A DNA stretch of 64,000 bases from Podochytrium sp. JEL0797 (lineage: Eukaryota > Chytridiomycota > Chytridiomycetes > Chytridiales > Chytriomycetaceae): NCBI GenBank assembly GCA_027596195.1, contig JADGJG010000011.1, forward strand, positions 45,070-109,069, in the 5' to 3' direction. Positions 5,037 through 19,201 of the stretch are shown piece after piece. A program made the position numbers and the translations under genes. The notes beneath the pieces were generated by a model. The model was not told where the DNA came from. It saw only the letters and a program-made list of their open reading frames with translations, and made no database searches. Within the stretch, counting starts at the first letter, position 1. Each line of letters begins with the position of its first letter.

Positions 5037-5567
5037 TGCGTTTTTGAAGTTCGGTTTTTGTTATTGCTTTTATGACACGGTTGTTGTTGAGAGAGAAATA
5101 TAGCTAGTACTTGCGTGGAGGCTTGACTTGATTTGTGTATAGAAAGAGTATGTAAACGCGCGGATGAACGCGACGAGATTCATTTTTGTAGAGTGATTCG
5201 TGATTGTGGAAGGACTGGAAGTCGGTAAGCTTTGTCCGCTACTCATGGTACTTATAACAAGATTTGGGGAAGTTACTTGATTTGCGTGTGAGAAAGTGTG
5301 TGTGTCTGTGTTTATGCGTGGTGCGATCATGTCCCCCCAAATGAACTTATCACTTGGCTGAACAGAACATTAAGACTGCGACTTTCGATAATGATACTTT
5401 AAGATGCCCGAAAGAATTTGAAAGAAAGAACCGAATATGTGTTTTCGAGGTTTTCCGAAAATGTCGTGCTCTGAGCGTGCTCCGGAATGCACCAAGTTAA
5501 TCAAGATGAAAGAAATGAGTGAGACTTGTGCAGCGAATTTATACCGAAGCTGACTTCTCAGCAAAGT
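5037..5567. other. Intergenic spacer with a diverged repeat unit
   Basis: The spacer follows the SMC6 stop. Apart from the repeat at 5383-5525 no gene or RNA is visible. The short open frames on both strands lack conserved motifs. Confidence 0.5.
5383..5525 (-). repeat. Repeat unit, copy B
   Basis: This stretch aligns with 6031-6170: both begin actttcgataat.atactttaag and continue with shared blocks gatgcccgaaa, ttccg.aaa and gctctgagcg. Each unit lies 3' (on the minus strand) of a coiled-coil reading frame, so the unit was probably duplicated together with the adjoining coding end. In a minus-strand frame both units and the coiled-coil C-terminus encode a related motif (RSEHDIFG, RSERDVSG, RRDIFG). 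Confidence 0.7.
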
Positions 5568-5815
5568 GTATTTGATTTTTTGCCAATGCGTGCAGCCATG
5601 TTCTTTGCCGCCAACTTGTTCAGCTTGGATCTTTGATCCACGAGTTCGCGTTCACCATTGCGAATGCTCTTGTAAGCTGCGGCCAGGCCAATCTGATGGT
5701 TCATGATTGCCTTATTGAATTTCTCTCCTTCCAAGCACTGGAGCGTTGACTGTCAGTATGTCTCGCCTCCACAGCAACAATCGTCGATTTTTGCGCCAGA
5801 ATCTCCGCTAAAGTA
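5568..5815 (-). pseudogene. Decayed partial copy of the 6255-7223 coiled-coil gene
   Basis: Read on the minus strand this segment matches the 3' half of the neighbouring coiled-coil gene (6466-6712) over about 250 bp. For example, one frame gives LAEILAQKSTIVAVEAR against EIQAQKTAIASLEAR. Another frame gives NHQIGLAAAYKSIRNGERE against QHQIGLAAGQKSIRASEHE. The match switches frame near 5740 and meets stop codons, so it cannot make the same product. With repeat copy B it looks like a tandem duplication that has since decayed. Confidence 0.7.
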
Positions 5816-6030
5816 TCTTGAAGTTTCAGAATAGTGGCTGACAGCAGCAGGGGGTTGGGGGGAAGCCGCAAATTGCTGCTGTGGGGATGGAGATGCCCTG
5901 CATTCAGGAGAGGCATCACGCTTGGAGAAGCTTCACGTTTGGCGGGGTGTGTGGGTGACTTGGTTCGCAAACGAACCGCCACCAATGCCTCCATTACTGT
6001 ATCACTTGACGGAGCAGCAAATAAAGAAGG

Positions 6031-6170
6031 GACTTTCGATAATAATACTTTAAGATGCCCGAAACAAGTTGAAAGAACGATTTTGTTTTGTGCTTTCAGG
6101 GGTTCCGGAAACATCGCGCTCTGAGCGTCCTCCGGGAAACGTAAAGTCAATCCAATAAAAAAACGAGTGG
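6031..6170 (-). repeat. Repeat unit, copy A
   Basis: Partner of the unit at 5383-5525. It shares the start actttcgataataatacttt and the block cgctctgagcgtcctcc. It lies just downstream (minus strand) of the intact coiled-coil gene end, as copy B does for the decayed copy. Confidence 0.7.
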
Positions 6171-6254
6171 GATCTCACTGACTTGTCACCAAGTGAATTA
6201 TACTTCAAAAAATATATGAAAAAGAGAACGAAAAACGAAATTAAATAGGAAAAA

Positions 6255-7223
6255 TTATTTTGGTGTAACCGAAGTGACAGCTTGAGCCAGTGATCTGGCA
6301 CTCTGGTAGAGGAGATCTCTTGGCATAAGAGTCCCAAAAATGTCCCGCCGATGAGAGCCGCGGTAGTGTTCGATTCCGTTTTTCGCCACCCTCTCATGAA
6401 GAATAGCCATTTCGGCTTTGAGTTCGTGAATGGCCTGCATTTGGGACAGAAAGACAAGCGCACTTGATTGTTTGCGAAAGTGGGCCGCCTTGATTTTTGC
6501 ACTAAGTTTGCTCAGCTTGAATCTCAGCTCCATCAGTTCATGTTCGCTGGCACGGATGCTTTTTTGACCAGCTGCAAGGCCAATCTGATGTTGCATGATT
6601 TCCTTGTTGAATTTTTCCGCTTGCAATCTCTGGAAAACTTGAGCATCGGCGAATCTTGCCTCAAGCGAAGCAATTGCCGTCTTTTGTGCCTGAATTTCCT
6701 TGTGAGCCGCCAAGAAGCGCTGGTGAAGCTCCACATGGTCTTTCTTGAATAACATATTGGACTGCTCAAGATCGGTGCACTTTTCTTTGAGAGCGTCGTA
6801 ATCGGTTCTGAGCGCATTGTGATCCTTTTCGAGAGCGATATGAGCCGTTTGGAGACCTTTGTGTTCAATCTCGAGCGAGTTGTGAGCATCTTTAACTGCG
6901 CTGTGTTCCGTTTGAAGAGAGTCGTGTTTCTTTTGAAGAGTTTGATGTTCCGCCTTGAGATTGCTGTGTTCCGCCTTGAGGCACCCGTGCTCCTTCTTGA
7001 GCGAGTCGTGAGCGCTGGTGAGAGCAACCTGAGAATCTTTGAGTGTATTGTGTTCCTTTTGAAGAACCTCGTGGTCCGCTTTGAGAGCACCATAAACCTT
7101 TTTGTGTTCAGTCTTCAGCGCGTTGTGCTCTGATTGGAGAGCCACGTGTTCCGTTTTGAGTGTCTGATGGTCCTCTTTCAGGGAATATTGGGCGACTTTG
7201 ATATCGGTGACTTGCTGGTTCAA
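6255..7223 (-). CDS. Histidine-rich heptad-repeat coiled-coil protein
   Basis: I do not recognise a family. The first ~170 residues are tandem seven-residue units of the type LK-x-EH-x-x (for example LKTEHVALQSEHNALKTEH), repeated about 20 times, which predicts a long coiled coil with histidine at a fixed heptad position. The remaining ~150 residues are also helical. The stop (TAA, 6255-6257) is clear. The 5' end is not: the frame is open up to about 7319 without an ATG, and an upstream exon joined near 7300 is likely. A decayed partial copy lies at 5568-5815. The repeats could attract false matches to myosin or golgin-type coils. Confidence 0.6.
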   Translation of the reverse strand: MNQQVTDIKVAQYSLKEDHQTLKTEHVALQSEHNALKTEHKKVYGALKADHEVLQKEHNTLKDSQVALTSAHDSLKKEHGCLKAEHSNLKAEHQTLQKKHDSLQTEHSAVKDAHNSLEIEHKGLQTAHIALEKDHNALRTDYDALKEKCTDLEQSNMLFKKDHVELHQRFLAAHKEIQAQKTAIASLEARFADAQVFQRLQAEKFNKEIMQHQIGLAAGQKSIRASEHELMELRFKLSKLSAKIKAAHFRKQSSALVFLSQMQAIHELKAEMAILHERVAKNGIEHYRGSHRRDIFGTLMPRDLLYQSARSLAQAVTSVTPK

Positions 7224-7319
7224 ACCCGAAAGCTCCGATGTAAGTCTCTGAACGGAACGCAGGAGCTGGCCAATATCTCGAGAGGAAAAATCACCGCGCC
7301 TATGTGCAACAGAATCAGA

Positions 7320-10300
7320 TCAAGTTCAACAAGAAGCGCGAAACGCAACATTACATTTTCCAGTGAGTTTTGGAAAGGAACGGGAGACGCGATTCAAAAT
7401 TCTTTGTTCTCGAAAAAAAGAAACAGAACAAAGGGCAGGGAGGTCCAATCATCTTGTTTCTCTTATATTCTTTCTTCTCTTCTAAATCTCGGGGGGTTTG
7501 AGAGCCCAAGAATATTTATTTGTAACGTTTCGCGCAGATTCGAATTGCAATGATTGACACGAAAACAGTATTCCGACTTCAGTTGTTTTCTACAGCCGAA
7601 TCCATAATATACATAGAAGGGGGAAAGATTTTGAATCAAAATGAATTGCGCTGCAACCACGGGACGCCAAGGCCCAAAAAAATTCGCATCGACGCGTTGC
7701 TCCGCTCAGGCTTCGTGCGCGAAAGGGGGTTGAGATTCGGTGAGGATCCACACACAATAAAGTTGGGATTCGTGCAGCCTCGATTGATTTGAACAAGAGT
7801 CACTGGGGCATGACATCAGAGTCAATTATGATCCTCTCAAACGCACTTGTTTGAGAGATATCCGCATTGTTGACGGGGGGGAGTGCAAGAAAATGTCTGT
7901 GAAGCACGTGTCGATATCTATTCGCGCAGGAGCAAGCTCGTTGCGAAGATATGGCGTCGGCCGCACACTGGTGGACAGATGGAGACTATGGTGCTTTAAA
8001 CTACAGTTCTCTAGAACTGAAGATTCAGGTTTGTGCGTAAAGTGCAACCGACATTTCGAATCGTTATAGAATGAAAATGGGTGCCATGGCACAGAAGTGC
8101 GAAACTAAGAGTGAAGCAGTGACCGCATTGGAAATCACGCCGCTGGGAATCGATTCATCCATGTCTCAATAGAGCAAGAGAGGCGTGTGGCGCTGATATG
8201 AGCCGGAATACGTTTGCAGGCACGGAACCACGCTGCGATAGGGATGAACTTCGGCCTCGGAAGAACGCAAAATCAATTCTGTCATGCACGGGTCAATTTC
8301 GACGACTTGAGAAAGAAGCAAACAAGTGAGCAGGACGGGTAAAGAGCGCCAGCACCCCCATCACGGAATCAACACGATATAAATTTCGATCTGCTGACAG
8401 ACGAAAAAACAGGGACAAGACGATCGTGTTGCGGGTCGCGAGAGTTGAAGCCGTGCACCGTCCAAATCAATCGCCATCTTGGGTTTGGACACAATGCGCA
8501 CCGAGGGATCAGAATTTTGACGCGTTCGAGCTGCGGAGAGAGCGCAGGAGATCCAGGAACAGATGGTCAAAGGCTTGCAATCGAACGGGTCTCGTGACGA
8601 GAGCGGTCGCCAGAGTTGAAGTCGCTCATCATCCAAATCACTCGCAATCTTACTTTACATCCAGTACGCGCCGAAGGGATCAGAATTTCGAAGCGTTCAA
8701 AGCTGGACAAAAAAACGAGGATTGCAATAGACGCGTCTCGTGCGACAGGTCAGTCTCCCACTCAAACTCCGTGCGTGCATTGACTCTGTCGCATAAATTG
8801 CACGAGAGAAGGAAATGGCGCGGTGATGATGGGGGATATCGGATGAAAGGAGTTTCAGTGGAGCACGCAGAACGGGCTATTGGGAAGGGTTGGCGGAGGA
8901 GGGAGCGGGGGGAGCGTTTGAGGGGAGAAAGAAGGGACATCTGATGCGGAGGAAAGATCAAATATGTATCATACAATCGTGTTGTTGGAGTCGTGGATTT
9001 CTGGGGATCGGTAATTATTCGGCTGGCCGCCAGGGCGGCGGAGGGGGTGCCTCGCGACGCAAAATCGCAAACTTGGGGTTCTGCGGGTGTGCTGCTCAAT
9101 GATTCGATCTCGCTCCTTTCCCACGATCACATGAAACACGTCGACCGTTGGTTCCATTTTTGCACAAATGAATGAACGAACCACAAACGAACGAATACTC
9201 AACTTTCCACCCTCGCAGCGGAACGAGTGTAAAATACTCCGACTCCGGCTGGCGCGTTTCAAACGAGCTACTCCCGCTCGGAAGTCGGGAGTGCTTTGAT
9301 CTTGAAAACGGGCCGTGTCACGCCGCAATTGTTTGAGGAGTTTCTGTTGCAAAAGGTGTGAGAAAGTGAGTGGACTGTGGAGGTAACGTACTTACATCGC
9401 GCAGGAGCTCGCATAATGGATCAGACCATATCCCACATCTCCAACCCCAATCGCGCGATGTGTCTTTCGTTTTTTGCGTCGATTTTGTCATGGGAACTCG
9501 CACTGGCTCTGTCTCCATCGCCTCCTCACTGGCAACAGCAGTTCTGCTCCCGTTTCGAATCATTTTAGACCGGACGCCGAATGTCACCCCCGAACATGTT
9601 TCAATCGCCTGAAAACGCACACTTCCACGTCGGCACCTCAATTGAGGCGATATCAAATCGTTGCGTGTTGTGACGGCTCGTGAATGGGACACGACCCCAG
9701 ATAAATTCAATGTACTCTATCACCCGAACCAGCGCTTCTTTAGCGGTCAAACGGAGAGGCTGAGATAATGAGAGAAAAGCTGTCGATCCAAGAGCGGAGG
9801 TTTCTTAGTCGGAGTTTGTCGAGTGTGAGGTTGACTCTAATAGATCCATGTCGATCCTCCAACTGCACTGGCGAGTGTCCATTGGCGATTTCTGTGCAAT
9901 CTCACTTGGCCGCCATGATTCCAACTGGGCCACGGATATTTTCACAGCATCAGTGCAATGATTCCACACTATTCAACATTCTTGGACCGCCTCCGACACA
10001 GCACTCTCGAATCACGGAAGCTCTTCGATTCATCACATTTGCATCGGACTTCGTTCGATTGGGGTATTTGGTTCTACCGGAGAGTTGATTCGAGAGTTTT
10101 GTCGCGGGGTCGCGGGGTTCGCGGCAATGATTGACGGACCGTTCATCGATCTCTCCAGTGGCTCGTGGCATCTCATGCTTCTCGAATATCCTCTTATGGA
10201 GCACCTGATGCGATTGGCTGGCTTGCTGGCTGCGAGTCTCTGGCGATCTCCCTGGCTTTGTTTGTCTTCTGTTTTTTTATCAGCTCTCGCTTCCTGCGCG

Positions 10301-10601
10301 GGCTTCTCGCAACTCCTCACCATACTGTCGCTGGATGACCTTCTCTGGCTTAACCCATTGGGTGGGTCGCGGCATCCGGATCGTAACTCGTCGCTGCACC
10401 AATTACCTGGGAAGATTTAGTTGTTTTTTTTCCTTTGAGGGCGGATTCGCCATCGCTTTTGACGGTGTTATTTCCAATCGAGTCTCCAATAAAATACATA
10501 TTGGTTCCCTATCTCTCTCACCAAGAACAATACTGTGCATCTCATTAGACCCTTTTACCATCCCATTTTCCTTTGTCGAATCGAAAAAATATCTCTTTCA
10601 A
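7320..10601. other. Gene-poor region
   Basis: Many short open frames occur on both strands, none over about 170 codons and none with a motif I know. No tRNA or other RNA was found. A pair of diverged direct repeats lies at 8420-8707. The region may hold decayed genes or fast-evolving small genes; nothing can be called with confidence. Confidence 0.5.
8420..8707. repeat. Diverged tandem direct repeat (about 180-bp period)
   Basis: The block at about 8428-8540 recurs at about 8606-8707. Shared words include gtcgc.agagttgaag, catc.aaatca.tcgc.atctt, gcgcc.a.ggatcagaattt and gaagcgttc.a/gacgcgttcga. In a plus-strand frame both copies read VARVE..H.PN.S.S and RRDQNF.AF, but open frames exist on both strands, so the coding strand (if any) is uncertain. 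Confidence 0.6.
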
Positions 10602-11093
10602 ATGGCCCTCACATCTGCGACACAAAGAATCTCAGCTATCAAGGGAAACGTGCAACGCGCCTACAAGACCACTTGGGAATACCTTCTCCGCGTGAACCAA
10701 TTGAAGCAGGAGCTCACTGACGAGCTCGACTCGCTTTCCGAAATGGAATGCGAAGTGGTCGAAATTGAAGCAACCCAAGCGCGCGAGCAGAAGGAGCTGG
10801 ACCAGAAGTACGCTCGTATTTCGGACGGGTTTCAGGCCAGATTGGAGGCGCAGCTCCAACTGGTGGGCATGAAATACCAGGAAATCAACGAAATCGAAAA
10901 TTTACGTCGCGGGGAAGCAAAGGAGGGAAATGCGGATATTAAAAGCGAAAATGAAGAACCTACCGTGGAGGCTACTCTCAACACTGATGTGGAACCGAAA
11001 GACGAGGAAGAAGAAAAGTCTCGAACGAAACACTCAACGAGGGAAGCAACGAAATTCTTCATCACGATGATGAAGAGGGGCATGACGAAATGA
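10602..11093 (+). CDS. Small coiled-coil protein with acidic tail, unknown function
   Basis: The frame opens with ATG 10602 (ALTSATQRISAIKGNVQR) and runs 163 codons. Residues ~20-100 are predicted helical coiled coil (EYLLRVNQLKQELTDELDSL). The tail is acidic (PKDEEEEKS). Just after the stop, a further ATG at 11098 opens MSKTDESDAAAIDHVKVE, followed by a candidate donor at 11158 and an acceptor near 11304, so the true gene may have another exon. The transposon starts 27 bp past that acceptor and may have cut into the 3' part of this gene. No family recognised. Confidence 0.5.
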   Translation: MALTSATQRISAIKGNVQRAYKTTWEYLLRVNQLKQELTDELDSLSEMECEVVEIEATQAREQKELDQKYARISDGFQARLEAQLQLVGMKYQEINEIENLRRGEAKEGNADIKSENEEPTVEATLNTDVEPKDEEEEKSRTKHSTREATKFFITMMKRGMTK

Positions 11094-11334
11094 ATCAATG
11101 TCAAAAACGGACGAATCTGACGCAGCCGCGATTGATCACGTAAAAGTCGAGGATGCAGGTTTGCCACTATCATTTATAATTCTTTGGGTTTTTCTGACTC
11201 TCTTTTCTGCAAATAAAAAGTTTCCATCTACCTCTACTGTTCTCGTATCGCTTAATTGGCGGGAAAAGTGGAATTTAGAATGACGGATGGAGCTTTGATT
11301 GCAGGAAGTGAGTTGAAGTCTCTCCAAGCGTTAA

Positions 11335-11373
11335 GGGACCGGGGCCCTCCCCCCCAAAAATTTCGACAAAAAA
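11335..11373 (+). repeat. Left terminal inverted repeat
   Basis: Begins GGGACCGGGGCCCTCC after TTAA and ends in TTTCGACAAAAAA. It pairs with 16840-16878 with one mismatch (last C of the C-run here is T there). Confidence 0.9.
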
Positions 11374-11505
11374 GCGGGAAATGGCCCCACCACCAACCCA
11401 CCGGCAAAAAAAGCAAATCGCCGCACCACCCCCTCCCCTTCTCCAAACAATAAATACATGGCCTCTTATATTTTTTATACAAGATTTCGAGCCATAATAC
11501 CGATT

Positions 11506-14184
11506 TTATTTTTCGAAGTATATATCACATTTCTCCCTCTCCATCAAATGCAAATCTTCATGGCCCCGCAAAGGAACAATAAAATGTTTCTTTTTCGTCC
11601 CACCAGGCAGACCTCGACGAGGATTCGGCCTTGTGATCATCAAATCGTCGGTAATCCAGCCGTTTGCCATCAACCATTCCAACAAAACCTTGATCCTCGC
11701 CTGAGTCTCACTAAATCTCCACCAGGAAGCAAAAGTGTCTCGACGTGGAACCCAATCACCACCCCCCCTCAGCAAAATCTCCGCCAGATCATTCTTCTTC
11801 ACGACCTTTGCAACCACATCAACGCCCGCGCCATTCACCCCCTTCTTAGCCCTTTTCGCCCCAGCACTGCCACTACCACCACTACCACCGCTTGCAGAAG
11901 CCCCCCCTTGCTTCAAAAACGTGAATAAAGCCTCCAGCTCAGACCTCTCCACCAGCCTCTCTTCTACCAAACAAATCACAACCTCCATCATGGCCTTCAG
12001 CTGATCGTAATAATTGATGCCCTTCTCCCAACTCTTTCCTCCAATACAGTTGCTGCACCGCGTCCCACACCTCTCTATAGAAACCCCAAAATGCGCGCTC
12101 ATCCCCTGGATAATGCACTGCGAACTTGCAAGCAGCAGTTTCATGGCTGCCAACTCCCTTCTTTGCGCGACCCAACTGCGCTGCTCCAAATCCACCCCCT
12201 CGTCATAATCCTCCGGCCGGCAGAGAACGTTCTCAATCGAATTTGAGGCTTTGGCCTCGTAGTTCTGCACGACCGCGTTCCCAGGGAGTTTGTCCCTCGC
12301 AATACGGCCACTATGCTGCGCAAAATCCGTGATAGACGTAGGGAAATCGTGGTGGATCGAGAATCGCAAGTCAAACACGTTCACACCCCCTCCAAACGCG
12401 ACGGTTGCGACCATGATTTGGATTTCCCCCGACTTGAACGCTTGCAACCGCGATTCTAGTTCTTTTCGGTCCATTTGGGCGTGGTAGAACGATACGTTCG
12501 AAAACGACTTCGACAACTCGGCATGGAGGGTCTCAACTTGCTTCACGGTGGTACAGTAAATCAAACCACGACGCTCATTCTCGGCCATGCCATTCAGGAG
12601 TTTGAAAGTGCACTGCGTGGGGTTGACACCGGTTTCTTGGTCGACAAAGTAATACGAAATGTTGGATGGTAGAACTGTTGGTGAGCGGAAGGTCGTGAAG
12701 GTGGAGGCAAACATGGTTTCGAGGGTTTCGACAGCAAATGTGCTCAGAGTGGCAGACAGAAAGAGCTTGCGAGACCAAGAGACCGGCAGCAGGCACTTGT
12801 AGCGCTGTGGGTTCAGCACGGCGCAATGGGCTTCGTCCACAACAAGGTTCAGCTTGACGCCCTTGTCAAGAAGCAGTTTGACGAGGTCCTGAATCGCGGG
12901 TGTCGCAAGCATTTCGGGAGCGAGGATCATGGCTTGAAGGCGTTCGGACGAAATAAGCTCAATGATTCGCTTGCGCAATTTGGCAGGAGTTTGCGCGTGA
13001 TAAGCGCCAGTGGAGAGATGGAATCGAGAGCATTCGATTTGCAAATCAAGCTGCAGAGCCACAGATGGAACCACCACGAAAGTGAACTCGTTCGACGGTT
13101 GAAGAGCCAACTCCACTTGGAACACCAACGATTTTCCATCCCCAGTAGGAATACTGAGGACACGAGACTCTAACAAAATAAAAATTTAGAATATAACGAG
13201 AAAATAAACGAAAAACAATTTACCATCCGGACACATCAAAGTGTCCAACTGAATCGGTCTGAACTGGTCAAACTCAAAAACTCGCAGCAAACAGTGCAAA
13301 AAGACGCGCTTCTTTTCCAACTCTCCATCCCCTCGGGCAGGGGCAATGCTCTTTCTCGCGTTACAACCTCTACACAGCAAATCCACATCTCTCACGTGCA
13401 AGTGGCAATCACAACAGTTGGTAACCACATTCCAGCCCTCTTCGAACTGAGCCCAAGGTGGTCTCTCAGCATCCACTCCTTCAATCGGATTTTGCGCATA
13501 CGCTCGTCCATATTCGATAAACGCGGACCTGACATCCACTCCACCGAGATTCCCCTTTGCCTCCGCCACCATGTCCGCCCTCCTCACTTGCTTCCGCTTC
13601 AAAACCTCATTAGTTGCTTCACGATGCTGCTCCTTCTCCTCACACCACTTCTCCAAGTTGGCGCGATCGTTGGAATCAGCTCCAATCGGGCAACCAGCAA
13701 GATCTCTCAAAAACTCCATCAACCGCATCCACCCATCATTCCAACTCACAAGCCACAATTCCATGCGCACTGGATACGTTCCCCAGAAATCTACACTCTT
13801 GTCGATAAAGTGCTTGTCCGATTTGTGGGTAGCTTCATTCAAGCAAGACACCTTGTCCGTGACTCGGTTTTGGCCCTCCACCAGCTTGAACAGCTTCACA
13901 ACCCTTGCGCGGAGCGTTTCAATGAAAGCTGGCGACCGTTCGCGCAGGTCCGGATGCAAATGAAGAGACTGGTTGTTCTTGTGGTTGCAGATTTGCTCCC
14001 AGCACTTGTCATGGTTGCCTTGGTGGTGGGCAACCCACTGGTGAAGTTGGTCCGAGACCAACTCTTCCGTAATCTCCTCTCGGGAGAGAAGCTTGGCTTT
14101 TGGGTTGCGCAAAGGAAAGAAAAAACACGCGCTCTTATAGCGCTCAAACCACTCAAAATGGAAAATCGAAGAAAAATCCCGCAT
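11506..14184 (-). CDS. Transposase C-terminal domain fused to RecQ-type DNA helicase
   Basis: Two exons are joined by a GT-AG intron at about 13177-13223 that restores FRPIQLDTLMCPD to ESRVLSIPTGDGKS in phase. The upstream exon carries motifs I associate with Mutator-like/Kolobok transposase C-termini: HHQGNHDKCW, a candidate catalytic glutamate in CLNEATH, and LVSWNDGW. A four-cysteine motif follows (CCDCH...CRGC). The helicase part has motif I TGDGKS, motif II VVDEAHC, motif III LSATL, motif V VATVAFGGGVN and motif VI QHSGRIARD. A cysteine cluster (CGTRCSNC) resembles the RecQ zinc-binding site. A ~25-residue Gly/Ser/Ala linker (GGSGGSGSAGAK) precedes a C-terminal helical domain. The start at ATG 14184 is the first in frame; the true protein probably continues upstream into the transposase core. 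Confidence 0.8.
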
Positions 14185-14228
14185 GCACCAGCTGCACGCG
14201 CCATCACCGAATCACTGTAGGAATACAA

Positions 14229-15070
14229 CTTACACCAACACCATAGGAAAAGAGCCCGCGTGCACCAACTATATAAATGCCATCAGCGAGATACGATAAA
14301 AACCGATTGGGATCGAAATCCTTGCAATGACTTTGCCAAGCACTCAAAAGCCAAGCGTATAAGCTATTTCATCCAGAAACAACCGCGCACTTCGACTCCG
14401 CAAAGTGTTTCTGGCACCCAAAGTGAGGAGAGAATCCAAATCACCATCAATCACAATCTCCAGTGCAAATGCATCCTCTCCATCACGTCTCAGCTCCTCC
14501 AACACCTGGAAAAACTCAGAATTCATATCAATAGTCTCCTCCAAAACAAAGTGTTCCATCTGCCCAGCGGACTTAGCAAAATTTCCACCTCGCAAAATCC
14601 CAATGACAGTCTCGTTATTCTCCACCCTCCTCAACTGAGGCTTCAAAGCAAATTTCATGGCCAAACAAGGCATTTTTGGGTACCCCGGAACATCCTCTGC
14701 GGCCAAAAATTTGCTTGCGCACTCATTGGCATCTCGCCACGAAGTCCACGCCGCATCAAATCCAACCCCAATAACAGGCTTCTCCTTCTCCCTGCGATCA
14801 TTAATGATTGCTACCAAGGCATCCTTTCGAGATTCAGCACCTCGAGCGGCAATGGTGTCCTTCAGGGGCTTTGTGACGTTCTTGCTGAACATGCATTGGA
14901 TCCAAAGAGATGGCAAAACTTGATAATCAGCGATGGTCCGACACCAGAGGCCAACGGTGAAAGGTGGTACATGTTTGTGAAGGTGGAATTGGATTCTCCG
15001 ATGTCTGCGCATTGAAAGCTGATGACGCCTTTGCTTTTTTCGCAACAGGGGAGCTTGACAGTGACTTGGT
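14229..15070 (-). pseudogene. Transposase core (DDE/RNase H type), reading frame interrupted
   Basis: The minus strand encodes WCRTIADYQVLPSLW and VIGVGFDAAWTSWRDAN, which resemble the region around the first catalytic aspartate of Kolobok/Mutator-like transposases. It also encodes LEIVIDGDLDS, a candidate second aspartate, before a stop at 14344. A different frame just upstream gives YQVTVKLPCC and SFQCADIGES. Another just downstream gives SHCKDFDPNRFLSYLADG, like the transposase element with D-P-N-H. I could not join these frames with convincing introns. Either unrecognised introns or frameshifts separate them. Catalytic residues are assigned by pattern only. Confidence 0.55.
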
Positions 15071-15087
15071 AGCCCTAAGTTAGAAAT

Positions 15088-16254
15088 TTACCGCGTTCCT
15101 TGATCTTGTTGAGGTTCCTCGCATAGGATCTCGACCGCATGGGCAACAGGAAGAGAGAGCAAGCTCGACAAACTTGGCACTGTCGCAAAACATGCTGGAA
15201 CCGAGATCGCAATCGTCTTTTCGCAGCAAATAACTACATCGACATTAGCTTTATTTCTCTTATGAAAACGCAACATAAACCCTTGATGAAAATACACATA
15301 CTTGGCAACATCACGCACACTTCCCCCATCCCCCCCACCAGCCACAGCCTCCGCCATGCTTTGCTTCAGCGTTTCTGTTGCACCCACTCGCTTCTTCAAG
15401 CTCCTCACATCCCCTTTCAAACGCGCCACATCCTCCTTGTTCTTCGAAACCGCAGCGACAACTCGTTTGGCTGACGCTTTGCTGGACAGCCTGGCGACAA
15501 CGACATCCATGAACGCATCCGACTGGTTTGGGGCAGCAATATTCGAAATCGCCTTGAGAAGAGCAATCGCGCATTGTGCTGTCTGCAATTTCGTGTTTTA
15601 GAATTTGCCGCAACATGGGTTGGTGTCAGCTTACCTGGTTGACTCGACGAGTGCTGAGCTTCGACATTTCCGTCAGAATAGATGAAGAAACAACCTTTTC
15701 GCCCGGTGAAAGAAGAAGCTCAACAAGTTGTTTCAAGGACTGAACGAAATCGAGACTTGCGGCAGATTCGGGGATTCGAGCTGCATCGCTGCTGGAGCCA
15801 GGCTGCACGTTTTCGGAAGCGTGAGACTCGTTCTCGGACGAACCGCCGTCATAGAAGGAACCGTCATCGAAAGCGTTTGGATCCTCGTCAAAAATAGTTG
15901 AGATCTCGACAAGCCGGATTCGCTTCGCGCCCCCGCCAGGGCCGTACGTGTTGTAGGCAACGGTGATCGATTGCTGGCTGGCCAGTTTCGCAGGTCTGGG
16001 GCCGGCAAGTTTCGCAGGTCTGGCGTCCGCAGGAGAAGGAGGAGCGGGAGGTGCCGATCATTCTCGTTCGAGGAGGATTGAGGCAGTTGCGGCAGAGGTG
16101 GCAGAGGCGGCCGAGTTGAACTGGCAGCATCTTGAGAAACCCTCACAGTTGAATCGTTTTCGGAGCGCAGAACTGCTGCCGGTTGTAAGGGCGTGCGAGG
16201 CTGCGTTGCAGTGGGCGGGGATGGCATTGGATTCGCCGATGGCATGGCTTCCAT
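15088..16254 (-). CDS. N-terminal region of the transposon protein
   Basis: One frame (from about 15960 down to 15626) reads AYNTYGPGGGAKRIRLVEIS, then an acidic Ser-rich stretch (FDEDPNAFDDGSFYDGG) and a helical part. An intron of about 50 nt (about 15583-15635) joins it to a second block with helices and a coiled coil (15088-15582), containing VYFHQGFMLRFHKRN. A proline-rich start (MEAMPSANPMPSPP, 16254) is in another frame and its connection is unresolved. No domain was recognised; its position suggests a DNA-binding or regulatory N-terminus of the transposase. Confidence 0.45.
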
Positions 16255-16839
16255 GTCGGAATTTTCGTGTCATTTTCGTGGGAAAACAAAGTGGGGAGCA
16301 TTAAACCCACTGCCCTGTCAGACACATTGTATTTGGGGAGGCCAGGACTAGTAGAGTCAGTGCAGAAGTGATCGTACTTGCTTCCAGCTGAATCTGAGAT
16401 ACAAATTCGACCAGGTAAAAGCGCTCAAGCTCTTCGACATCCAAGATTGAAATTCGACCTGGCAAACGTCGAATAGCCGTTCGACTGGGATTTCAGACGA
16501 AATTGGACAGAAATCGACTTTTCTCAGTAAATAGTAATCCGTCTGAGCCAATTTTAAGTGGAATCTGTTCGCATAGTATAAACATACTTTATCATTGAGT
16601 TTAAATGGGATTGCTCGATTTTTGAGACTGGAATAGCTTTTGGCGTGGGCCGAAAACACCTCCAAAAGGAGGGAGCCCCCAAAGAGTGAGATTTATTTTT
16701 TATAAAAAGTCCAGCTAACCTGTACTTCGAAGCTCAATCATCTGTGCGTATACAAAGTTTCAAAGTGATTGGGGCAGTGAGTCTGTCGTGGCGCTTGCTC
16801 GACAAACCAGGCTCAAACTCATTTCCTCCGCCATACATT
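16255..16839. other. Transposon 5' non-coding segment
   Basis: This lies between the first transposon codons and the right terminal repeat. It is AT-rich in part with no open frame of note and probably holds the element promoter and subterminal transposase-binding sites. No exact internal repeats of the terminal sequence were seen. Confidence 0.5.
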
Positions 16840-16878
16840 TTTTTTGTCGAAATTTTTAGGGGGGAGGGCCCCGGTCCC
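16840..16878 (-). repeat. Right terminal inverted repeat
   Basis: Reverse complement of 11335-11373 with a single mismatch, followed by TTAA at 16879-16882. Confidence 0.9.
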
Positions 16879-16942
16879 TTAAAAAAGATGATTGTTTTTT
16901 CTCAAAAAAGTAAGCGATAAAAAATGAAAAAAGGTTAGGACG

Positions 16943-19201
16943 CTATGGGGATTGCGTTTTCAAGATTGCAGATCTGGGGCTCGGAACGATCAAGTGCGCA
17001 GGGGTCAAATGCCCATGGGACAAATGCGGGGCATGCCTTCCTGGAACCTCCACTAAAACATGGGCGCTTAAAGTCGATCGACCCTTCTCATGATGACCTG
17101 GCGGAAATTCCTTGCCGCTGCGATTCTGGCTCATGTTGTTGCTCATATTGCTCCTGTGGATGGAAATCATGCTGGCCGACAAGTCGTGCACGAACTTGTT
17201 TGCGTCAATTTTCCCATCTTCGCCGATACACCCTTCAGGAACTTGACCGCCGTCTGCGAGACGGCCCAACTGCTTCTGGATGAATTCTTCCTCGGGGGTC
17301 GAGATGAGGTGGAAGCGGTGGTAAACCACAAATTCGATTGTCATGACACCGAGCTTTCCGAGACATACAAACAGAGTTTCTCTCATGATTTCTTGGAGAA
17401 AGAGTTCAATCAAGGCGGAAGTGAAGGCGACGAGTGAGATGACGGCCATAAGGATTCCCCAAAAGTTGCCGAGGTCGAAGGGACGTCTTGGTGGGGTGGG
17501 TTTTGGGGGAAGGGATTAGCCAGGCTATGCGCGAAAAGAATGCGTGGAAGCTTACTTCAAGTTTGGAAAAATGAGCTTCATGCGAATATAGGCTGCCGAA
17601 ACAGATAAGTAGGCGAAAATCGCGTACAGGAGACTGCCGTTGAGAAGCGCTTGTCCAACGACTCCGGCAGATTCTAACAAATCACGCATCAGCAGGACGT
17701 ACTGAAATCACGTGAACCAAGCTAAAAGAGAACGAACCAAATTGGAGAATCAAAGCAATCACGACAGTCAACACGCAGGCCAGAACCGAGGCGTTGAATG
17801 GAGATTTTGTAGACTCCGTCGTTTTACTATACAGTTGTGGGTAGTATCCGACCTTGCTGAGTGCGTAAATTTGTCTCGACGTAAAATACGTGTAACACAT
17901 CATACTGTGATAGTAAATGCGCGTTCAGAAAAATGCACGGATAGCAGTGAGATGTTCAAACTCACCAGTTAATTAGCGCCGGAATATAGAATAAGCTATA
18001 GAGAATTTTGGCAACTGTTCCGCCATCGATCAAAAGATCCATGTTCCAGGTTGAGAGGAACGCGTCAATCATGGGGTCGTTCAGTCCCCGAAGTTGGCCA
18101 ACTCCTGGCGAAAGGCCCGGAACCAAAATGATAACATAAGAAATAACGCAGTAAACTAGGATCATTGCGTAAATCATGAGTTTTGGGGCCTGTGAAAAGT
18201 ATTGACTCTCGTCGGCGAGAAGTGGAGCACCCTCGATTCCAAGTACAGTCCAAACTTGACTGAAAGTGGACATCCAGAGTCCGGAAGTGCCAAGTGGGAA
18301 AAGCAAGTCGTATGTGGTTGGTGTTCCAGTGAAATCAGCCGGAAGAAATTCTGCGGCGCTTTGGATCGCGTTTTGGTTCAAATTGTAAGAAGGCTAGAAA
18401 TAATGCATGCAGTATGAGTAATTGATCAAGAAATTAAACCTTGGGTGTTACCATAGCAGCCATAACGATACAGAATCCACCAACGACTTCAAGAAAGAGT
18501 GTGACGGCGCAAATTCTGGCAATGTACTTGACTCCTGCATAATGTGCTCCGAGCATAAGGAACATTGCTGGAATCCAATACAAAGGTGCAAATTTCTCAT
18601 CCGTGTTGAAAATCTGACTGCATGTGGTTCCAAAAAAATAAAAGGCCTCTCCGGCTACGAGAATATACTCCCAGGCTTCGCAAGATCCCACAAAGTATCC
18701 TACGTATGGTCCTGTTATGATTGCAGAATCGTTTTGTTAGATTAGGAAATGAATTCGACGCGTGTGAGAGTTACCAAACGCGGCTCTGGCAAAGACAGCC
18801 ATTCCTCCGTTGAATGGAAGCATAGCCATCAACTCAATTAAATTGAGAACAAAGCACAGATAACATGAAAGACCGAGAAATGTTGCGACGAGAAGATTTC
18901 CCCATCCATATCCGAGAAGGGTGTTCCAGGTGAACGGAGCTCCGAGACACACCGAAGGTGAAGCAAACATGATGAAAAGCATAAAAGCGGAAACACCGGT
19001 ACTATCGAGGGATCTCTTCTCGAGGAACTCGCCGTCGCATTCCTTGTAGCGACATGTTTCTGACCCGAAGACGTTGAACACGTGAACCTGCGGCGGTGCT
19101 GGGACATCGGGTGCGCCAGTTTTCGCCGCGATCGGCGTTCCTGTTTTCATGTGGGACTGGGCCGGTTGGGCATTCGGGGAGGGGGCCTCCGAGTTTGTCA
19201 T
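16943..19201 (-). CDS. APC-superfamily amino acid / ethanolamine-type permease
   Basis: A polytopic plasma-membrane transporter with a hydrophilic N-terminus (start ATG 19199-19201, MTNSEAPSPNAQ) and about 12 hydrophobic segments across some six exons. Examples are AFMLFIMFASPSVCLGAPF, LLVATFLGLSCYLCFVLNLI, ILVAGEAFYFFG and FLEVVGGFCIVMAAMV. The arrangement and the APC-like ELMAMLPFNGGMAVFARAAFGP support this family; substrate cannot be read from sequence. A ~110-residue hydrophilic C-terminus follows the last membrane segment (MTIEFVVYHRF). The stop (TAG, 16943-16945) lies just 60 bp from the transposon edge, so the 3' UTR or polyadenylation of this gene may now use transposon sequence. Confidence 0.8.

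Follow-up and report, generated by a model that had tools for sequence, protein, structure and literature searches.

Kolobok DNA transposons are described as generating TTAA duplications, as having 5'-RR and YY-3' termini unlike those of piggyBac, and as sharing a C/DxxH motif, which in almost all of their transposases is followed by a zinc finger ahead of the final E (sections of Kojima and Bao 2022, PMC9587614, used here and below). The same sections name KolobokH, a fungal helicase-bearing Kolobok lineage. The name 'Kolobok-H' also appears in papers with animal titles, as far as the available portions of those papers go, which fits uneasily with 'only fungi'. Here we describe an element on contig JADGJG010000011.1 of Podochytrium sp. 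JEL0797 (Chytridiomycota), within a stretch of 64,000 nucleotides (the window) whose internal positions are used as coordinates throughout. This element is very likely a decayed cut-and-paste DNA transposon of the KolobokH lineage in a chytrid fungus, assigned by described features. These are the TTAA target sites, termini that start with 5'-GG, a zinc finger preceding the catalytic E and a RecQ helicase downstream; in all readable features it fits KolobokH, except for the missing DxxH motif. Helicase-bearing Kolobok elements are already named in print as KolobokH, so the element is not of a new kind.

The element comprises 5,544 bp (11335-16878) with TTAA on both sides (11331-11334 and 16879-16882), and the span with both TTAAs is 11331-16882. 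Its left terminal inverted repeat (39 bp, 11335-11373, plus strand) starts with 5'-GGGACC, and the reverse complement of the right one (16840-16878, minus strand) is identical to it at 38/39 bases. This end comparison confirms the two TTAA-bordered 39-bp repeats with one mismatch reported in a first-pass annotation of the stretch. Within 10001-18000 the longest exact inverted repeat is 24 bp, compared with a maximum of 16 across 100 first-order Markov sequences derived from the same stretch. The element's termini, 5'-GGG...CCC-3', fit the 5'-RR/YY-3' rule as set out for Kolobok in the cited sections of PMC9587614.

The TTAA sites and the helicase could also belong to a helicase-bearing element that targets TTAA but comes from a different superfamily (piggyBac-like or Academ-like), given that piggyBac likewise uses TTAA (same sections of PMC9587614) and that AcademH is also helicase-bearing (parts of PMC10799480). 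This explanation is very improbable: although TTAA is present, the ends are 5'-GG and not of the piggyBac type, a difference that those sections of PMC9587614 draw between Kolobok and piggyBac; a zinc finger ahead of the E is likewise described there for Kolobok; and Pfam gave no match to transposases from other superfamilies. The TTAA sites, 5'-GG ends and zinc finger support the Kolobok reading offered in the first-pass annotation.

Each of the 15 peptide strings that we sought falls into a single minus-strand frame, in which the D, D and E motifs of the transposase are followed by a paired-Cys motif and, across a 54-bp intron, by a RecQ helicase. The transposase core (14407-15087, minus strand) contains the first D in GFDAAW (codon 14755-14757) and the second D in VIDGDLDS (codon 14446-14448). 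The C-terminal half of the transposase (13224-14120, minus strand) carries an H/H/C/C zinc finger, HHQGNHDKCWEQIC, at 13987-14028 between the second D and the E, then LNEATH (13825-13842) with the predicted catalytic E codon at 13834-13836, a CCDC...CRGC linker of CxxC...CxxC form (13363-13416), and finally RecQ motif 0, FRPIQ (13249-13263). A predicted GT...AG intron (13170-13223, minus strand) is followed in phase by the RecQ helicase exon, and the same junction is found in the deposited protein (GenBank record P0001). The splicing in phase of a minus-strand transposase-like part onto RecQ, as annotated at first pass, is supported by the shared frame of the motifs and the identical junction in P0001. 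Upstream of ~14900 the reading frame and exon structure are uncertain; the N-terminal coding region (15088-16254, minus strand, GenBank start codon 16252-16254) has remnants elsewhere in the genome (loci L042 and L047).

A distant relative lies on another contig of the same genome, C5 (locus L040, C5:35000-44374, at ~5100-7900; deposited as P0121). The C5 relative has a 742-amino acid frame with D, DGD, DHSH, H/H/C/C, NEALH, CxxC pairs and RecQ motif I, and it aligns with the window protein at 27% identity over 226 residues (BLASTP, E 8e-19); a tblastn match to it covers P0001 residues 455-743, reaching RecQ motif I (E 1e-16). The H, H, C, C spacing of the zinc finger is identical in the window copy and the C5 relative, and the first D and the E of the two share alignment columns; the two second Ds were matched up by visual inspection.

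Several observations limit the KolobokH assignment. The significant match to C5 starts just before the zinc finger, covering zinc finger, E and downstream sequence, and the pairing of the first D with C5 is not significant taken alone (BLASTP, E 2.7). A C/DxxH motif was not found in the window copy, where a foreign repeat sits. No Pfam transposase model matches P0001, P0121 or the C5 frame at E<=10. PF20700, a model for Kolobok-like transposases, has no match in the genome and none in 14 control genomes either. The fold model of the transposase (predicted local distance difference test, pLDDT, 32, from a two-row alignment) is too poor to speak for or against an RNase H fold, the structural check proposed at first pass, and two protein-database searches with transposase parts recovered, among the best 8000 candidates, only the record of the query itself. 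Finally, the outer flanks of the element, when joined, match solely this locus's own two flanks in a search of the genome of this one strain, so that the empty TTAA sites proposed as a check at first pass were not encountered. A search of NCBIfam models and PDB sequences likewise gave no match to the C5 transposase.

The helicase exon (11506-13169, minus strand, stop codon 11506-11508) encodes the core motifs I-VI, a zinc-binding cluster and a C-terminal tail. With motif names as in general use, motif I lies at 13129-13152, DEAH at 12823-12843, SAT at 12742-12759, motif V at 12379-12411, motif VI (QHSGRIARDK) at 12289-12318 and the RecQ-type Cys cluster CGTRCSNC at 12046-12069, all on the minus strand; the RecQ motifs I-VI and Cys cluster listed at first pass could thus be located, from FRPIQ through CGTRCSNC. 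Beyond the intron, the coding sequence has matches to Helicase_C and DEAD, and the helicase part matches the RecQ family model TIGR00614 at E 1e-40 with 139.9 bits, under the curated cut-off of 219.8 bits. Among PDB sequences there are 115 distinct matches at E<=0.001, the best 60 of which start with RecQ1, RecQ5, bacterial RecQ, BLM and WRN and continue into DEAD-box helicases. An AlphaFold model built from 22 sequences has a mean pLDDT of 70.7 (residues 11-310 mostly >70, beyond 380 poor), and in Foldseek it is closest to 6crm, a RecQ catalytic core, with E 3.3e-24 and a TM-score, normalised to query length, of 0.58. When the fused query was compared with a protein database, 177 proteins were found among 7999 scored; within the best 120 of these, its own record alone extends over the full query, and coverage by the remainder is 12-64%.

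The GenBank record of the gene, P0001, is a 1278-amino acid 'ATP-dependent DNA helicase sgs1' (window 11506-16254). Together with the open helicase frame and the presence of its motifs, this name would suit a regular RecQ (Sgs1) gene of the host, situated by chance between inverted repeats, an explanation that we regard as extremely improbable. P0001 also has a part in common with the C5 relative (E 8e-19), and in remnants elsewhere, ends of the element are linked to fragments of this coding region. In a 20-row RecQ tree, moreover, the element helicase groups with neither of two host helicases and stands unplaced, alone on a very long branch (>8). With that long branch, and with 2/17 inner branches well supported, we make no claim from the tree about where the element helicase came from. 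The label 'sgs1' on P0001 is a misannotation of a transposon gene as a host helicase.

Between the second D and the E, an unrelated repeat that is dispersed in the genome interrupts the transposase gene for ~286 bp (14121 to ~14406), as identified from genome matches and pairwise comparison. Its first 208 bp (14121-14328) are identical to a copy on contig C231 and similar to further copies; at least 13 matches occur in the genome, its own place included and two contigs listed twice. By pairwise comparison, 5/9 loci reach 14406 (L055, L056, L057, L061 and L041) and 4/9 stop earlier. The P0001 gene model treats the repeat as an intron, thereby dropping GDLDS after the second D. A clean insertion of the repeat was considered and rejected: in an alignment of 11 stretches, several copies share sequence past one or both junctions, and no target duplication was seen flanking the repeat. 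It therefore seems likelier, from the sequence comparisons, that the repeat replaced a stretch of the transposase gene than that it was simply inserted. The distance from second D to E is 204 codons in the window copy, of which ~95 are repeat, compared with 167 in the C5 relative, so ~58 residues are missing; the same stretch holds DHSH in C5, and the DxxH stretch thus appears to have been lost from the window copy. Elsewhere in the genome, this unclassified dispersed repeat (at least ~290 bp) also occurs on contigs C231, C864, C283, C544, C229, C335, C753, C92, C272 and C423.

Four in-frame stops of the transposase frame lie inside the repeat. With these stops and ~58 residues missing, the window copy very probably makes no working transposase; the helicase part alone could be whole, if the gene is expressed. 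The 'self-contained element' of the first-pass annotation is not supported for this copy, the transposase frame being cut by the repeat with its stops and the DxxH stretch apparently gone. The 14.2-15.1 kb product singled out there runs at its end partly into the foreign repeat, and a reading of 14344-15087 as transposase throughout was dropped for the same reason, its last part being repeat.

An open helicase frame beside a broken transposase is what might be expected of a domesticated transposase-helicase gene retained by the host, with the ends as leftovers, and the C5 relative, with its long open frame, no convincing end repeats and a SAM-like match in deposited P0121 (E 0.013, below the Pfam cut-off), could be cited in the same sense. 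We nevertheless consider domestication at this locus very unlikely, as the ends are still matched at 38/39 bases with both TTAAs kept, the gene contains a dispersed repeat of which 208 bp recur without change in another copy in the genome, and decayed helicase fragments on contigs C272 and C489 resemble defunct members of a mobile family.

A decayed transposon family is also what the rest of the genome suggests, where our search counts for the element and its parts are lower bounds. The first 170 bp of the element occur in at least 7 places, 2 of them its own ends. Family ends preceded by TTAA (the query that located them contained TTAA) lie on contigs C418 (124 bp, 95%), C899 (65 bp, 92%) and C544 (395 bp of the right end, 85%). 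At locus L047, left-end sequence is joined to an N-terminal coding part and a right-end piece, the pattern of an internally deleted copy, and locus L042 has rearranged pieces of the element ends and the N-terminal coding region. Besides the host helicases, decayed helicase fragments occur on C272 (50-77% identity, with stops) and C489 (73-85%), with a weaker one on C726 (41%). The 247-amino acid transposase core matches only itself in the genome, and the 341-amino acid transposase part matches C5 at 26% and, in addition, short stretches belonging to the dispersed repeat. Neither a second full-length copy nor an intact one was found in the genome searches; other full-length copies and an intact transposase frame had been proposed at first pass as a check on the element.

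Two further candidate ends were not counted as belonging to the family: C335:24630 fits a 19-base end pattern but fails a 27-base scan, and an end on C469 looks related by eye, is diverged and has no BLAST match. The latter (C469:13066-13084; L046 5085, minus strand) is bordered by TTAA, has similar-looking subterminal sequence and perhaps represents another subfamily. Elsewhere in the window, a tRNA gene lies at 269-342 (Rfam RF00005).

The C5 relative represents a second Podochytrium family, fragments of which occur on contigs C297, C626 and C203. Transposase, CxxC pairs and RecQ motif I succeed one another in it as they do in the window element; it differs in that DHSH is kept, that the helicase is unrecognisable past motif I and that the sequence around it yielded no end repeats (5 pairs listed, none convincing). 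The C5 relative may be a relic, or else a gene that has been domesticated. A broader proposal would have chytrid KolobokH as a single, very divergent transposase-zinc-RecQ polypeptide whose remains gave rise to a host gene, with C5 having kept a long open transposase frame and all signature motifs, shed its ends along with most of its helicase, and perhaps become joined to a SAM-like domain; we think this unlikely.

In an intact relative of the window element, a single polypeptide would bind the 39-bp ends, its D/D/E active site would cut at TTAA, and the element would insert into another TTAA. Family knowledge and the structure of the ends make excision and TTAA insertion by DDE chemistry the most likely course in such a relative, and insertion would presumably duplicate the TTAA. 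We infer that the fused RecQ helicase, attached via the zinc motif, works on the same DNA ends or on the donor gap, where it might open the cut ends or handle their strands, or steer repair of the gap. This probable KolobokH element of a chytrid is now bounded, its two ends and the target sites beside them being known and a single gene encoding both its helicase and its transposase. Its helicase was deposited as the host repair gene 'sgs1', and an error of this kind can distort fungal gene counts.

No report of this element was found in the parts of the literature on KolobokH and on Kolobok in chytrids that were available. Compared with KolobokH as described in the cited sections of PMC9587614, the window copy is interrupted by a repeat, seems to be without the DxxH stretch and resides in a chytrid host. 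Subtelomeric RecQ genes of Mycosphaerella were considered as a parallel and set aside, there being no Kolobok in the portion of that report at hand (PMC4522978). AcademH (Kojima 2020), as cited in parts of PMC10799480, is a helicase-carrying DNA transposon lineage of fungi and animals with an Academ transposase, and is likened to the window element by description. Kolobok-1_CCri of a red alga is likewise a Kolobok with a RecQ helicase, but according to those sections of PMC9587614 its helicase is encoded on the strand opposite to the transposase, whereas the window element has one fused gene. The telomeric KolobokH of Cladobotryum mycophilum, as presented in parts of PMC10989895, has RecQ-like helicase genes as does the window element; it is ~10.5 kb long, lies by telomeric repeats and carries two helicase genes and another gene, whereas the window element is 5.5 kb long, lies between ordinary sequence and joins transposase and helicase in one fused gene.

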